This document shows, piece after piece, positions 3,279-21,495 of a DNA stretch of 31,023 nt (positions are counted from its first letter, which is position 1; every line of letters begins with the position of its first letter). Position numbers and translations under genes: made by a program. The DNA comes from a virus, in the IMG/VR virus record IMGVR_UViG_3300043172_000254, positions 1 through 31,023 of that record; one strand, written 5' to 3'. The notes under the pieces are model-generated. The model made no database searches. It was not told the origin of the DNA and saw only the letters and a list, made by a program, of their open reading frames with translations.

Positions 3279-3500
3279 ATGAGAATTTCAACAGAAAAAA
3301 TAAGCAACACAGAATACAAAGTAAGACCTACAAGTAAAAGATTTATCGGAATCATTTCATTTGTAAATTTAGACGAAGAAGAAAACAATTGGATTGTAGA
3401 TTTCAACTACGATAACGAATACGACAACAAAGAAGATGCAATCAGAGCAGCTAAATCAATAGTTACTTTGGAATGGGAAACAAAAGCAGGTTTATTATAA
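3279..3500 (+). CDS. Hypothetical protein, first gene of a three-gene cassette (73 aa)
   Basis: This protein is not recognised. It is a small mixed alpha/beta protein: strands in residues 1-40 (EYKVRPTSKR, FIGIISFVNL), an acidic middle (NYDNEYDNKEDAIRAAKSI) and a helix near the end. It lies directly behind the operator-promoter at 3192-3255 and is followed by a GNRA-capped hairpin. The cassette (3123-4242) is one of the few here with its own control region, which suggests the product must be regulated rather than read from an outside promoter. Confidence 0.6.
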   Translation: MRISTEKISNTEYKVRPTSKRFIGIISFVNLDEEENNWIVDFNYDNEYDNKEDAIRAAKSIVTLEWETKAGLL

Positions 3501-3536: not shown

Positions 3537-3788
3537 ATGAATAATTCAGAACAACACCCAGAGGCGTGGGATTTCTACGAAGAGCAAGCTAGAAATATAT
3601 CTGACGAAAATTCTATTAATCATTTGGGAAACTATAGAATACCAAATCCAGACATGAGCGGAAAGTTTGTCTATGCAACTAACGTTGAAATACTTTGGCA
3701 AAAATTTATACGGGAATGGTATTCGATTGAATCCTTAAATGCCCCAACTGTTAGAGGCAAGATTCAATACATAACAAATAATTTTTAA
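3537..3788 (+). CDS. Hypothetical acidic protein (83 aa)
   Basis: This acidic, tryptophan-containing protein is not recognised (EAWDFYEEQARNISDEN near the start, ILWQKFIREWYSIESL near residues 51-66). No membrane span or signal peptide is seen. It is the second gene of the three-gene cassette, and its stop lies one base before the next ATG (3788/3790), so it is probably co-translated with the HTH-like protein that follows. Confidence 0.55.
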   Translation: MNNSEQHPEAWDFYEEQARNISDENSINHLGNYRIPNPDMSGKFVYATNVEILWQKFIREWYSIESLNAPTVRGKIQYITNNF

Positions 3789-4427: not shown

Positions 4428-4577
4428 ATGGTATCACTAATAGTTTATTTAATACTAATATGTACAAATGCGTATTTAGCTACACAAAGGAAGAATAAAG
4501 TGCGAGTATTTAACTTAATAGTAGTTGTGTTTATGGTTATAATGATGTTCTTTATAAAATGGGAATACCTCCCATAA
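4428..4577 (+). CDS. Small two-span membrane protein (49 aa)
   Basis: Two hydrophobic helices, VSLIVYLILICTNAYLA (2-18) and FNLIVVVFMVIMMFFI (28-43), flank a short basic loop (TQRKNKVR). The family is not recognised. The gene fills cassette 4411 onward, whose start and end pair at 17 of 21 positions; the ATG lies 17 nt from the cassette start. Tiny membrane proteins in cassettes may act at the envelope, for example in phage exclusion, but no direct evidence exists here. Confidence 0.5.
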   Translation: MVSLIVYLILICTNAYLATQRKNKVRVFNLIVVVFMVIMMFFIKWEYLP

Positions 4578-4584
4578 TTACATT

Positions 4585-7064: not shown

Positions 7065-7742
7065 TTATTCTAAAGTCATAAATGAAAATAAAACTAACGG
7101 CTCAAATGGGTCCCAATCAAATGCAACCTGTACTGAACCACCTGTTCCGGGTCTCGATGCTGTTGCAAATGCAAAACCCCCCGCATCGGAAGTTTGCTGT
7201 GAATCATCTTCTGTGTATCCTGACCCTGTTGCCGTTACAGTTTCATCAGCAGCAAGACAAAGAAACGCACCACCCAATCCGCGTTGTGGTGCTGATGGAT
7301 TATTACCAAATCCAGTACCAGCAGAAGATGTTATTCCTGCCACTCCGTCTATGGTATTAGTTCCAACGTACTGATACATAATACCAGCAGAATTACCACT
7401 ATCATCTATTGTTACTGCTAGATTTCCGGTTTCTGTTCCATCGGCAATTTTGTACCACCATTGACCACTCAAATCAGCATCATCAACGGATGCAATACTT
7501 GTCCATCCAGAAGGGGTTACAAATGTTGTACTTTGCTTTGAAGTGACTAATAATATAAGAAAATCATTAGTATTGACTGTTGCCGGATATGGTACATTCA
7601 CTGTAACACCTGCCGTTACTGTTGCCATTGTTCCAGCACTTCCAAATTCAGAATCACCAAAATTTTGGTTTAATCCATAAAACTGACATTTGCAGCCCAC
7701 AAATAAAAATACTAAAACAGATATTAAAATTAATCTTTTCAT
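7065..7742 (-). CDS. Secreted or lipoprotein-like fibre-region protein (225 aa)
   Basis: The N-terminus (MKRLILISVLVFLFVGCKC) is a signal peptide with a lipobox-like FVGC. If it is used, the mature protein would be a lipoprotein with Cys17 as first residue. The rest is a low-charge, Ser/Thr/Gly-rich beta protein (SAGTMATVTAGVTVNVPYPA, FLILLVTSKQSTTFVTPSGW), of the sort seen in surface adhesins and phage tail decorations. It lies 2 nt after the large fibre gene and ends with LFSFMTLE. The role is unknown; a receptor-binding or surface-coating protein is likely. Confidence 0.6.
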   Translation of the reverse strand: MKRLILISVLVFLFVGCKCQFYGLNQNFGDSEFGSAGTMATVTAGVTVNVPYPATVNTNDFLILLVTSKQSTTFVTPSGWTSIASVDDADLSGQWWYKIADGTETGNLAVTIDDSGNSAGIMYQYVGTNTIDGVAGITSSAGTGFGNNPSAPQRGLGGAFLCLAADETVTATGSGYTEDDSQQTSDAGGFAFATASRPGTGGSVQVAFDWDPFEPLVLFSFMTLE

Positions 7743-18704: not shown

Positions 18705-19034
18705 TTAATTTGTCCTTTCGCTTGCTAATACTTTTACAACTCTTTTATTTTCGTCAATCTCTAAAATACTTGATACACTAAATGTTCTGCTTTCGTAAGT
18801 CAATGTAACCGCCTGTGTAATATTTGTTCCCTGTTCGTATCTAAATGTAAATTCATACGCTGCCTGCCCTAATTGCAGCCCGTTTAATAATACCTTACTT
18901 TGGCTCAATGGTGTCGCACTACACCATGTCGTAGTGTTCGTTGCTGCGCCCTTTGTGCTACCACCTGTTGCTGTTGGTGTACTCGCTGCATACGTTGTAT
19001 ATATAATCCTTCTATTTAGTTTACCAATTTCCAT
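18705..19034 (-). CDS. Head-closure / head-tail adaptor protein (109 aa)
   Basis: It begins MEIGKLNRRIIYTTYAAST, the typical start of SPP1 gp16-type head-tail joining proteins (MxxGxLxxRIxI). A small beta barrel follows, with FTFRYEQGTNITQAVTLTYE and an end FSVSSILEIDENKRVVKVLA. It overlaps the connector gene by one base. It closes the portal channel and provides the tail docking surface. Confidence 0.78.
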   Translation of the reverse strand: MEIGKLNRRIIYTTYAASTPTATGGSTKGAATNTTTWCSATPLSQSKVLLNGLQLGQAAYEFTFRYEQGTNITQAVTLTYESRTFSVSSILEIDENKRVVKVLASERTN

Positions 19035-19558
19035 TAATACACTTTAAACTGTTGTAAATAGTTATAAAAATTATCGGTTAATTTTACCAAACCACCCTCG
19101 AAAGTATTACCCCTCTTTTCGTATGATTCAGCGATGCACTTCAACATCGCTAATTTAACACCTGCCGGACAATTTGCTAAAGTTGTATATTTCACATACA
19201 ACCCATTATCAGTACCATCTATTGCTGTAACTCCGTTTACTTTGATTAAAAATTGAGTTAATCCGGATTTCACAAAATCAGCCGTTGCCGTTCCGTTTAC
19301 TTTTACTTCTACAATTGCATTATGATTCGGATATGGTAATTTCACCCAATTTAAAATAATATCAATATCTTCCTCGAAATATTCAATTGTTTTATCAATC
19401 AAAGCCAATCCGCTCGCTTCCTCTGCGATTTCCCGAACCTGAGTAATCAGCGAACCAATCAATGTATCTTCATCGCTAAAGTCAACCTTCAACCAGCTTT
19501 TAACTTCGGCTGCTGTAATTGGCTCTGTACTTCCTACATTTGAATATTTGATTTGCAT
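19034..19558 (-). CDS. Head-tail connector protein (HK97 gp6-like, 174 aa)
   Basis: The N-terminal helix pair is typical: EPITAAEVKSWLKVDFSDED, then TLIGSLITQVREIAEEASGL, followed by LIDKTIEYFEE. The C-terminal part has a long helix (GVKLAMLKCIAESYEKRGNT). This is the gp6 or gp15-like ring that binds the portal. It overlaps its neighbours by one base on both sides. Confidence 0.82.
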   Translation of the reverse strand: MQIKYSNVGSTEPITAAEVKSWLKVDFSDEDTLIGSLITQVREIAEEASGLALIDKTIEYFEEDIDIILNWVKLPYPNHNAIVEVKVNGTATADFVKSGLTQFLIKVNGVTAIDGTDNGLYVKYTTLANCPAGVKLAMLKCIAESYEKRGNTFEGGLVKLTDNFYNYLQQFKVY

Positions 19559-19761
19559 TACTTCATATCTTTATTGCCTATAAAATCCTGTGCTTTGTTC
19601 TTCGGACTTGTCTCAATAGCCTTGTTTTTTGGCTTTTTTGAAATAGACTTAGTTGCATATCCATTCTCTAATAGATACTTTTCATATTTTGCTGGAATAT
19701 CAGTGTAGATTTTTCCTGTTCGATATTTCCCGGCTCTCTTTACCATCATTACTTTTGCCAT
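19558..19761 (-). CDS. Small basic head-region protein (67 aa)
   Basis: This lysine-rich protein is not recognised. Residues 1-40 (VMMVKRAGKYRTGKIYTDIP, AKYEKYLLENGYA) form a short beta-helix unit, and the rest (KPKNKAIETSPKNKAQ) looks disordered. A small protein of this kind is often found between capsid and connector genes. It is the first gene after the tRNA-like element, separated from it by about 30 nt of A/T. Confidence 0.5.
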   Translation of the reverse strand: MAKVMMVKRAGKYRTGKIYTDIPAKYEKYLLENGYATKSISKKPKNKAIETSPKNKAQDFIGNKDMK

Positions 19762-19790
19762 AACTTTTATTTTAAATTAAATTAAATTGT

Positions 19791-19831
19791 GCCTACGGTG
19801 GGAATCGAACCCACCGTTTCACCATATAGGC
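19791..19831 (-). ncRNA. Miniature tRNA-like element (acceptor stem plus T-arm)
   Basis: Read on the minus strand, GCCTAT (19831-19826) pairs with GTAGGC (19796-19791), and GGTGGG pairs with CCCACC around TTCGATT. This loop matches the tRNA T-loop consensus (TTCRANY) at every position. The two stems stack as 6 + 6 = 12 bp, equal to the 7 + 5 of a real acceptor/T-arm. D-arm and anticodon arm are replaced by ten bases (ATGGTGAAAC). The 5' end lies directly after the TAA of the gene before it (19832-19834). No encoded CCA follows (A, then CAA). A degraded tRNA, an RNase P substrate, or part of an attachment site are all possible. Confidence 0.65.
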
Positions 19832-20278
19832 TTACTTATAAACGTATGTAATGTTTATTTTAGTCGTATCTCCGGTATCACCAACCCCTGCAACTCTATA
19901 ATATTTGAATGCCGGGTCTATAATCCAGTTAGCAACTAATCCATTCGTTATAGTTAATTGGTTCAGGTCTGCACCTGTCAAACTCGCAACAGGACTTGCA
20001 GTAATTACACCTCCACCAACTCCGTTAACAAACACATAGCTTGTCCCGTCATTAGAACCATATAAAGCCACCGTTCCGTCTGAAGTACCTCCTAATTGAG
20101 TGCATAGTGCTGTAATACATAAAGTATTGTATGAACCGTTTATAGTCGTTCCGATTTGGAAATTAACGGTTTCAGCACCTTGTAATGTATCTACTGTTAC
20201 GGTGTGCAAACTCCCTCTTTGAGCCATTGAAGCCATAGCGAACAATGAAACAAGTAAAACTAAAAATAACTTTTTCAT
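19832..20278 (-). CDS. Secreted-type protein beside the capsid gene (148 aa)
   Basis: A Sec signal peptide (MKKLFLVLLVSLFAMASMAQ, cleavage after Ala-Gln region at about 19-20) is followed by a beta sandwich of about 128 residues (TVDTLQGAETVNFQIGTTIN, GTSDGTVALYGSNDGTSY, ending FKYYRVAGVGDTGDTTKINI). The place, 5 nt after the major capsid gene, is where head decoration proteins usually are, and the fold style fits one. A signal peptide on such a protein is strange. The stop codon adjoins the tRNA-like element. Confidence 0.6.
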   Translation of the reverse strand: MKKLFLVLLVSLFAMASMAQRGSLHTVTVDTLQGAETVNFQIGTTINGSYNTLCITALCTQLGGTSDGTVALYGSNDGTSYVFVNGVGGGVITASPVASLTGADLNQLTITNGLVANWIIDPAFKYYRVAGVGDTGDTTKINITYVYK

Positions 20279-20283
20279 AATTT

Positions 20284-21495
20284 CTAAGGATTAGTTATTT
20301 CAGTGATTGCAGCAGTAAACGTATCAGTAACAAACGCTAATTTCTTAGCAGTTGGTATAACCAGCACACCTCTTGAATAAAGAGTAATAGTTTTCAATTG
20401 AGCAACGGCATCGGTTTCGTTCTGTTCCCAGATACGAAGTTCCATGTCTTTACGTGTCCAATATTTAGCCTGTTGGAAATCCCCTACAAGGAAAGTACCT
20501 TTTGTTTGTCCCGAATTAGAGATAATTGGTACACCATCAACCTGCGGATTGCTTTGAGTATAAATCGGAATGTAATAGTCACCGTCAGCATTTCTCTCCA
20601 ATTTCATATCGCGCAAATCGGAAGGGTGCAATACAATAAAGTTTGCGCTAAAATTAGCAATGTCAATCTGATTGACAGCAAACATCAAAGCATCGTAGCG
20701 TGTAGCGGTCTGTCCTAATGGAACTTTATCACCACCTGCTGCAAATGCAGTAGCGGCTGTTTGTACTCCATCAAATCCTTCATCACCGCCGGAAGTCCCT
20801 GAAAGTAATGCAGCGTCTAATTTCAACATTTGCAAGGTTACAAGCTCGGTTTGAATCTCACTCATAATCCATTCAATATCATCAAGTGCGTTGTTACTTA
20901 TTTTCAAGAAACTTGAAAGGTTCTGCATAGCAACAGACTGAGTTGTATAACCCAATACAGTTTGAGACGATGGAGCAACGCCCTCATCAACCCATTCCGA
21001 GTTGTCGGTTCTGGTTTTGCGCTCTACATAATAAAGAGTCAATGAACTGGCAATACCACGGGCCACAATGTCAATCATAAATGTTTGACGGTCTGGTGCT
21101 TTAACCAATGATGGGTCTCTTTGAGGCCACGGTATCAATGAACCGGTAGTTACTGAAGCAGTTGCAGTCTCCAAGAAAGACTTAACACTTATCATTAACT
21201 CTTTTTTGTGGGATGCCTTAACGCCTTTGATGTTTTCAATCTCAGCATTTAACTGCTTTCTTAAATCTTCTACGAATGTCACAACAGTTTCTTTTTTGTT
21301 GATTTTCGCGTTTTTTTGTTCCGTTGCAATGTCATCTAATTGCTTTTGCATAACGCCCATTGTGCCGTTTGCTTCATCTAAACTCTTTTGAAGTTCAGCC
21401 TTTTCTTTGCCACTGGCTTCTGACATAGCATCGACAATCTTCTGAATGTCTCCTTTATGTTCTACCAAAGCGGCTTTTAATTCTTTTTCTTCCAC
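20284..21495 (-). CDS. Major capsid protein, HK97 fold (403 aa)
   Basis: The N-terminal 110 residues are a charged coiled coil (IQKIVDAMSEASGKEKAEL, then LDEANGTMGVMQKQLDDIAT), the delta-domain type scaffold cut off by the protease. The rest is the capsid domain: SVTTGSLIPWPQRDPSLVKA, LTLYYVERKTRTDNSEWVDE, NFIVLHPSDLRDMKLERNAD, a typical HK97 E-loop to P-domain order, and the ending KKLAFVTDTFTAAITEI. It lies 3 nt behind the prohead protease, the classical order protease then capsid. Confidence 0.9.
   Translation of the reverse strand: MEEKELKAALVEHKGDIQKIVDAMSEASGKEKAELQKSLDEANGTMGVMQKQLDDIATEQKNAKINKKETVVTFVEDLRKQLNAEIENIKGVKASHKKELMISVKSFLETATASVTTGSLIPWPQRDPSLVKAPDRQTFMIDIVARGIASSLTLYYVERKTRTDNSEWVDEGVAPSSQTVLGYTTQSVAMQNLSSFLKISNNALDDIEWIMSEIQTELVTLQMLKLDAALLSGTSGGDEGFDGVQTAATAFAAGGDKVPLGQTATRYDALMFAVNQIDIANFSANFIVLHPSDLRDMKLERNADGDYYIPIYTQSNPQVDGVPIISNSGQTKGTFLVGDFQQAKYWTRKDMELRIWEQNETDAVAQLKTITLYSRGVLVIPTAKKLAFVTDTFTAAITEITNP

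Follow-up and report, generated by a model that had tools for sequence, protein, structure and literature searches.

Mini-tRNA elements after stop codons in phage genomes, and their proposed role as punctuation of polycistronic mRNA

In mitochondrial tRNA punctuation, intergenic tRNAs are cutting signals in polycistronic RNA. Plant mitochondria also contain t-elements, which are tRNA-like, lie at mRNA ends, undergo cleavage by both RNase P and RNase Z, and have no role in translation (Hanic-Joyce 1990; Forner 2007; in PMC11658184, PMC8003010); their cleavage sets mRNA ends, and they are CCA-tailed and not aminoacylated (PMC11658184; PMC8003010). RNase P efficiently cleaves hairpins that consist only of an acceptor stem, a T-stem, and a T-loop, and it also processes phage M3 RNA, antisense C4 RNA, and T4 gene 32 mRNA (PMC11143913). 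Here we analyze a viral DNA of 31,023 nucleotides (IMG/VR record IMGVR_UViG_3300043172_000254, positions 1 to 31,023; 'the window' denotes this whole stretch), in which a 41-nt tRNA-like element at 19791-19831 lies between the capsid and connector genes. We refer to this element and to similar elements in other phages as mini-tRNAs, or minis.

Each of these systems resembles the window element in part. Mitochondrial punctuation uses decoding tRNAs, whereas the phage mini cannot decode, though relatives have a full tRNA in the same place. T-elements have been described as tRNA-gene homologues with a typical tRNA-like secondary structure and belong to organelles, whereas phage minis are 40-45 nt long, have no D-stem or anticodon arm, occur serially, and lie right after stop codons. 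The RNase P model substrates contain the same minimal parts but are synthetic; phage minis would be natural, with a GG bulge in addition. The M3, C4, and T4 gene 32 RNAs are likewise phage transcripts cut by RNase P, but neither a T-loop mini class nor serial punctuation is mentioned in PMC11143913. We found no earlier report of a phage mini-tRNA in the open-access literature; subscription journals might hold one.

Structure of the window element

The RNA of the element is read from the minus strand, which also codes for the genes of the late operon. The whole element and its parts, the latter in order along the minus strand from 19831 to 19787, are:

19791-19831, minus strand: mini-tRNA element, whole, 41 nt (sequence, fold, and structural scan; identical 41-mer in relative L002 despite diverged context)
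19827-19831, minus strand: 5' strand of the acceptor-like stem, GCCTA, pairing with 19791-19795 (fold and covariation)
19817-19826, minus strand: 5' bulge TATGGTGAAA, 10 nt, with a D-loop-like GG at 19822-19823 (GG in class bulges)
19810-19816, minus strand: 5' strand of the T-stem, CGGTGGG (fold and covariation)
19803-19809, minus strand: T-loop TTCGATT (sequence; the commonest loop of the class, 26/59)
19796-19802, minus strand: 3' strand of the T-stem, CCCACCG (fold and covariation)
19791-19795, minus strand: 3' strand of the acceptor-like stem, TAGGC (fold and covariation)
19787-19790, minus strand: 3' tail ACAA, a discriminator-like A and then C, with CCA not encoded (A73-C74 kept in most class elements)

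Judged by its sequence, the element is a mini-tRNA: it has an acceptor stem, a T-arm, and elbow bases (the T-loop and the D-loop-like GG), without a D-stem or anticodon arm. An earlier, sequence-only reading of the window had recognized a tRNA-like acceptor/T-arm minihelix with T-loop TTCGATT at these coordinates, and the present analysis bears this out. That reading was right that both stems are present but gave them 6 bp each; the stems are 5 bp (acceptor-like) and 7 bp (T-stem), able to stack as 12 bp, just as the 7 + 5 bp of the acceptor/T-arm half of a tRNA do. It was also right that the D- and anticodon arms are missing, but overlooked the D-loop-like GG of the bulge and the ACAA tail. 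Folding of the complementary strand of the element gives -16.8 kcal/mol (z -3.9; 1/200 shuffles equally good), and folding of the minus strand including the ACAA tail gives -19.0 kcal/mol (z -3.3). A structural rule finds one match in the window versus none in 20 dinucleotide shuffles.

A functional decoding tRNA is rejected, because the sequence contains no anticodon arm and ARAGORN finds no tRNA at the element. The tRNA-like domain of tmRNA has an acceptor stem and a T-arm with a D-loop but no D-stem, whereas the mini lacks the mRNA-like part, the tag frame, and the further helices of tmRNA. Rfam gives sub-threshold matches only on the window element: for tmRNA (RF00023), a 17-nt match to the T-arm alone scores 15.5 bits versus a gathering threshold of 47, and tmRNA is rejected since there is no gathering-level match. 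The arrangement of tRNA-like stems in the Plastid-ycf2 5'UTR family (RF04354) is alike, but that family is plastid, and its weak match (27.1 bits versus a gathering threshold of 65.7) is below threshold and on the opposite strand. A small conserved open reading frame (ORF) starting from an ATG inside the bulge was rejected, since the frame differs among relatives.

Related elements in unrelated phages

We searched IMG/VR with the pattern TATATGGT-N(8-16)-GGTTCGATTCC, which within the pairing imposes GG/CC alone, and obtained 33 stretches, many of which are minis with differing, paired acceptor and T-stems. Minis carrying TATATGGT have the T-loop TTCGATT nearly without exception. A widened T-loop pattern yielded mostly additional fragments of ordinary tRNAs and therefore serves as a control. 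Covariation across 21 distinct sequences is 0.641, versus 0.174 in column shuffles (reached by 0/500), and sliding the partner strand lowers it to 0.11-0.16. Changes on both sides of a pair occur in 6/6 acceptor pairs and 5/7 T-stem pairs, so that 11/13 pairs, in both stems, show the compensatory changes that the sequence-only reading had named as a test.

Unannotated minis are present in Mycobacterium phages Archetta, Papyrus, and Konstantine, in Streptomyces phage Joe, in crAss-like phage cr131_1, and in many IMG/VR contigs. They lie on the gene strand, and a single genome can carry as many as 12; 2-5 occur in each of several IMG/VR phages. Whole-genome scans find 12 minis in Papyrus and 7 in Joe, and a scan of 39 of the 69 kb of Konstantine finds 7, with shuffles at or near 0 in each case. 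An eighth match in Joe, seen only under looser settings, falls within a gene on the opposite strand and has a 5-bp T-stem. The structural scan finds no mini in phiC31 or lambda, and a guessed tie to the early 'terminators' of phiC31 was dropped since phiC31 has no mini; 50 kb of E. coli contain one match, apparently part of a tRNA gene in an rRNA operon. ARAGORN and the Rfam tRNA model leave the minis unrecognized, GenBank records leave them unannotated, and Rfam at gathering threshold recognized no mini among eight test loci, where it found a genuine tRNA-Leu. As a separate observation, a 174-kb IMG/VR phage (L133/L134) has more than 20 tRNA genes, one with the amber suppressor-like anticodon CTA, and one mini, at 3398-3441.

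Several of these counts come from a scan that demands pairing and are thus circular with respect to pairing; the argument therefore rests on the syntenic set, the pattern-found set, the bulge GG, the stop-codon position, and detection by sequence only. A stop codon lies at -8 to +20 nt for 49/58 distinct scan matches versus 11.6% of places chosen at random on the same strand (p 5e-37; frames of >= 50 codons, and with the E. coli match and one or two tRNA pieces among the 58). GG, which the scan does not require, is present in 59/59 bulges of distinct scan matches versus 0.40 in random segments, mostly 14 nt ahead of the T-loop. This GG is plausibly the equivalent of G18-G19, which would dock on the T-loop to form an elbow, as the actinophage bulge ACTGGCAGACA resembles the D-loop of tRNA-Leu. 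A rule that demands no pairing (GGY, 11 nt, TTCRANY) finds places at which both stems are present in Papyrus (10/14), Joe (8/12), and Konstantine (7/8), versus 0/3 in phiC31 and 0/1 in lambda.

Bacterial RNase P contacts G1-C72 and R73-C74. In the actinophage set of 26 minis, which lack CCA, the first base is G in 24/26, the discriminator is A in 22, and the base after it is C in 25, a pattern that fits these RNase P contacts. We conclude that an RNA class of ~41-nt elements in phages of several host phyla is well supported. One mini, at 23971-24010 of L129 (Papyrus 59971-60010), extends over the start given for Papyrus gene 78, which suggests that this start is annotated too early.

The capsid/connector slot in the window and in relatives

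The genes that flank the element in the window are:

20284-21495, minus strand: gene for the major capsid protein, in the upstream block (match to PHROG major head protein, E 3.4e-31)
19832-20278, minus strand: signal-peptide-like ORF of 148 aa, located after the major capsid gene, its TAA abutting the element (ORF calls and relatives)
19558-19761, minus strand: small downstream ORF, 67 aa, preceding the head-tail adaptor gene (start codon 29 nt past the element)
19034-19558, minus strand: gene for the head-tail adaptor (connector), in the downstream block (match to PHROG head-tail adaptor, E 9.5e-12)

As the sequence-only reading had noted, the element starts on the base right after a stop codon, the TAA of the 148-aa ORF, and lies between the capsid and connector blocks; 29 nt separate its end from the ATG of the next ORF. 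Gene order implies that the transcript would be polycistronic.

The slot is conserved, with a mini in the window and in relatives L002, L006, L017, L019, L021, and L031. In L002 the 41-mer is identical to that of the window, and 45 nt are identical in all, in genomes whose capsid proteins are 60% identical, whose preceding ORFs are 39% identical, and whose following small ORFs are unalignable. L019/L020 and L021/L022 have another version of the mini in common, L031 has a third, and L006 and L017 have further ones, which were located by synteny rather than by structure. In the L006 and L017 minis both stems are rewritten with pairing retained, and the loop is ATCGTTT. This loop, instead of TTCGATT, is seen at L006 4773-4820, L017 6994-7040, and L029 ~650-697; it changes T54-A58 to A54-T58 and retains T55 C56 G57, possibly reflecting a different loop geometry or partner.

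A full tRNA occupies the slot in L016 and L023 (tRNA-Thr in both), L030 (tRNA-Met), and L025 (an odd tRNA). The connectors of L017, which has a mini, and L023, which has tRNA-Thr, are 92% identical, and the DNA of the two aligns well as far as the stop codon and once more beyond the point where the next ORF starts, with sharply different sequence between. An apparently identical tRNA-Thr(TGT) is present in the slot at L016 5069-5141 and L023 462-534; the L016 capsid protein is just 24% identical to that of the window. The L025 tRNA (2757-2840) has an enlarged anticodon loop, is called tRNA-??? by ARAGORN with the 4-base anticodon tagc, and might have lost its decoding role already or act as a frameshift suppressor. 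Hairpins of the form CCGGTGAAA..CCGG recur beside the tRNA or after the capsid gene (L023 ~432-460, L025 ~2730-2755, L030 ~3705-3735, L016 ~4545-4580), possibly as another RNA end or terminator element.

In L003-L005 the preceding ORF is absent, and the mini of the other relatives is replaced by a terminator-like hairpin (in L003, at 7246-7275, AAGCCCATTC...GAGTGGGCTTTT), which agrees with a requirement for capsid and connector expression to be kept apart. Scans of genome contigs with the capsid alignment and a search of viral contigs with the 148-aa ORF returned no relative, and BLAST of the element region against phages returned nothing.

Proposed function and alternatives

The minis retain the parts of a tRNA that the processing enzymes read, drop the parts that decode, swap with full tRNAs, and sit at gene ends, and for these reasons punctuation is the most economical account. 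We consider it likely that the minis are a serial punctuation of polycistronic phage mRNA, with RNase P and probably RNase Z predicted to cut at gene ends, a role that would parallel that of plant-mitochondrial t-elements. After synthesis of the long mRNA, the mini would adopt a fold resembling the upper half of a tRNA; host RNase P would cut its 5' side, just past the stop codon; and RNase Z would cut its 3' side, perhaps followed by CCA addition. In the window, as the sequence-only reading had suggested, the message would thereby be split between the capsid and connector blocks, which could then have separate decay rates and levels, and cut minis would divide long operons in other phages likewise. 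Somewhat less firmly, we think it probable that ~41-nt mini-tRNAs arose when full tRNAs lost their decoding half, and that they serve phages of several host phyla as general punctuation cut by host RNase P (and RNase Z).

Compared with t-elements and tRNA punctuation, the minis likewise show a tRNA-like fold at mRNA ends (by covariation and stop-codon position) and are likewise interchangeable with a genuine tRNA (the L017 mini and L023 tRNA-Thr; tRNAs in L016, L025, and L030), but, at 40-45 nt only, they show no homology that spans most of any particular tRNA gene. If the proposal is right, phages in bacteria also employ the tRNA punctuation known from organelles, by means of a stripped-down tRNA invisible to current annotation tools; the minis would be natural minimal RNase P/RNase Z substrates, and a portable RNA-cutting part, and would explain gene-specific mRNA ends in long phage operons.

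Several observations weigh against punctuation. Phages that carry minis also have many operon gaps without one, and L003-L005 manage with none in the slot. The ATCGTTT loop of L006, L017, and L029 breaks the canonical T54-A58 pair, and the bulge has to stand in for a whole D-stem, anticodon arm, and variable region. The length of the stack ranges from 11 to 13 bp and most minis encode no CCA, which may leave room for either cut to come first or for a one-sided cut.

A one-sided cut is the basis of the alternative that survives best, in which the 3' side alone is processed and CCA-tailed, or the element is just bound by tRNA-binding proteins, so that the upstream mRNA is capped against 3' exonucleases with no RNase P cut. 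The location of minis directly after stop codons is where such a cap would be, and plant-mitochondrial t-elements are CCA-tailed (PMC11658184); however, the G1-like first base of the actinophage minis and their A73-C74 fit RNase P recognition, and cleavage at both ends would be expected of the full tRNAs that occupy this slot. We regard this alternative as unlikely. Quite improbable is a decoy or sponge, in which minis, once excised, would sequester a host defence factor or an enzyme that binds tRNA, and the place after the stop codon is merely convenient: the minis retain elbow and acceptor features but no anticodon, and several copies occur per genome, but the window has a single copy, and a sponge needs neither a copy per gene gap nor a fixed stop-codon position.

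Still less probable is a hairpin that terminates or attenuates transcription between the capsid and connector genes. L003-L005 do hold a terminator-like hairpin in the slot, but at the window element an intrinsic-terminator scan finds no site and no T tract follows the hairpin, and a terminator would have no need of the conserved T-loop and bulge GG. A tRNA-derived attachment site or a decaying tRNA relic, both raised in the sequence-only reading, is scarcely credible: the element is tRNA-like and tRNA 3' ends are common attachment sites, but no integrase is found among the 20 window proteins scanned, other phages have up to 12 different copies per genome, and covariation, purifying selection, and the 45-nt identity in diverged genomes speak against decay.

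Elsewhere in the window, positions 1559-2434 of the plus strand contain an auxiliary metabolic gene, a phosphoadenosine phosphosulfate reductase-like gene (phrog_424, E 4e-41).
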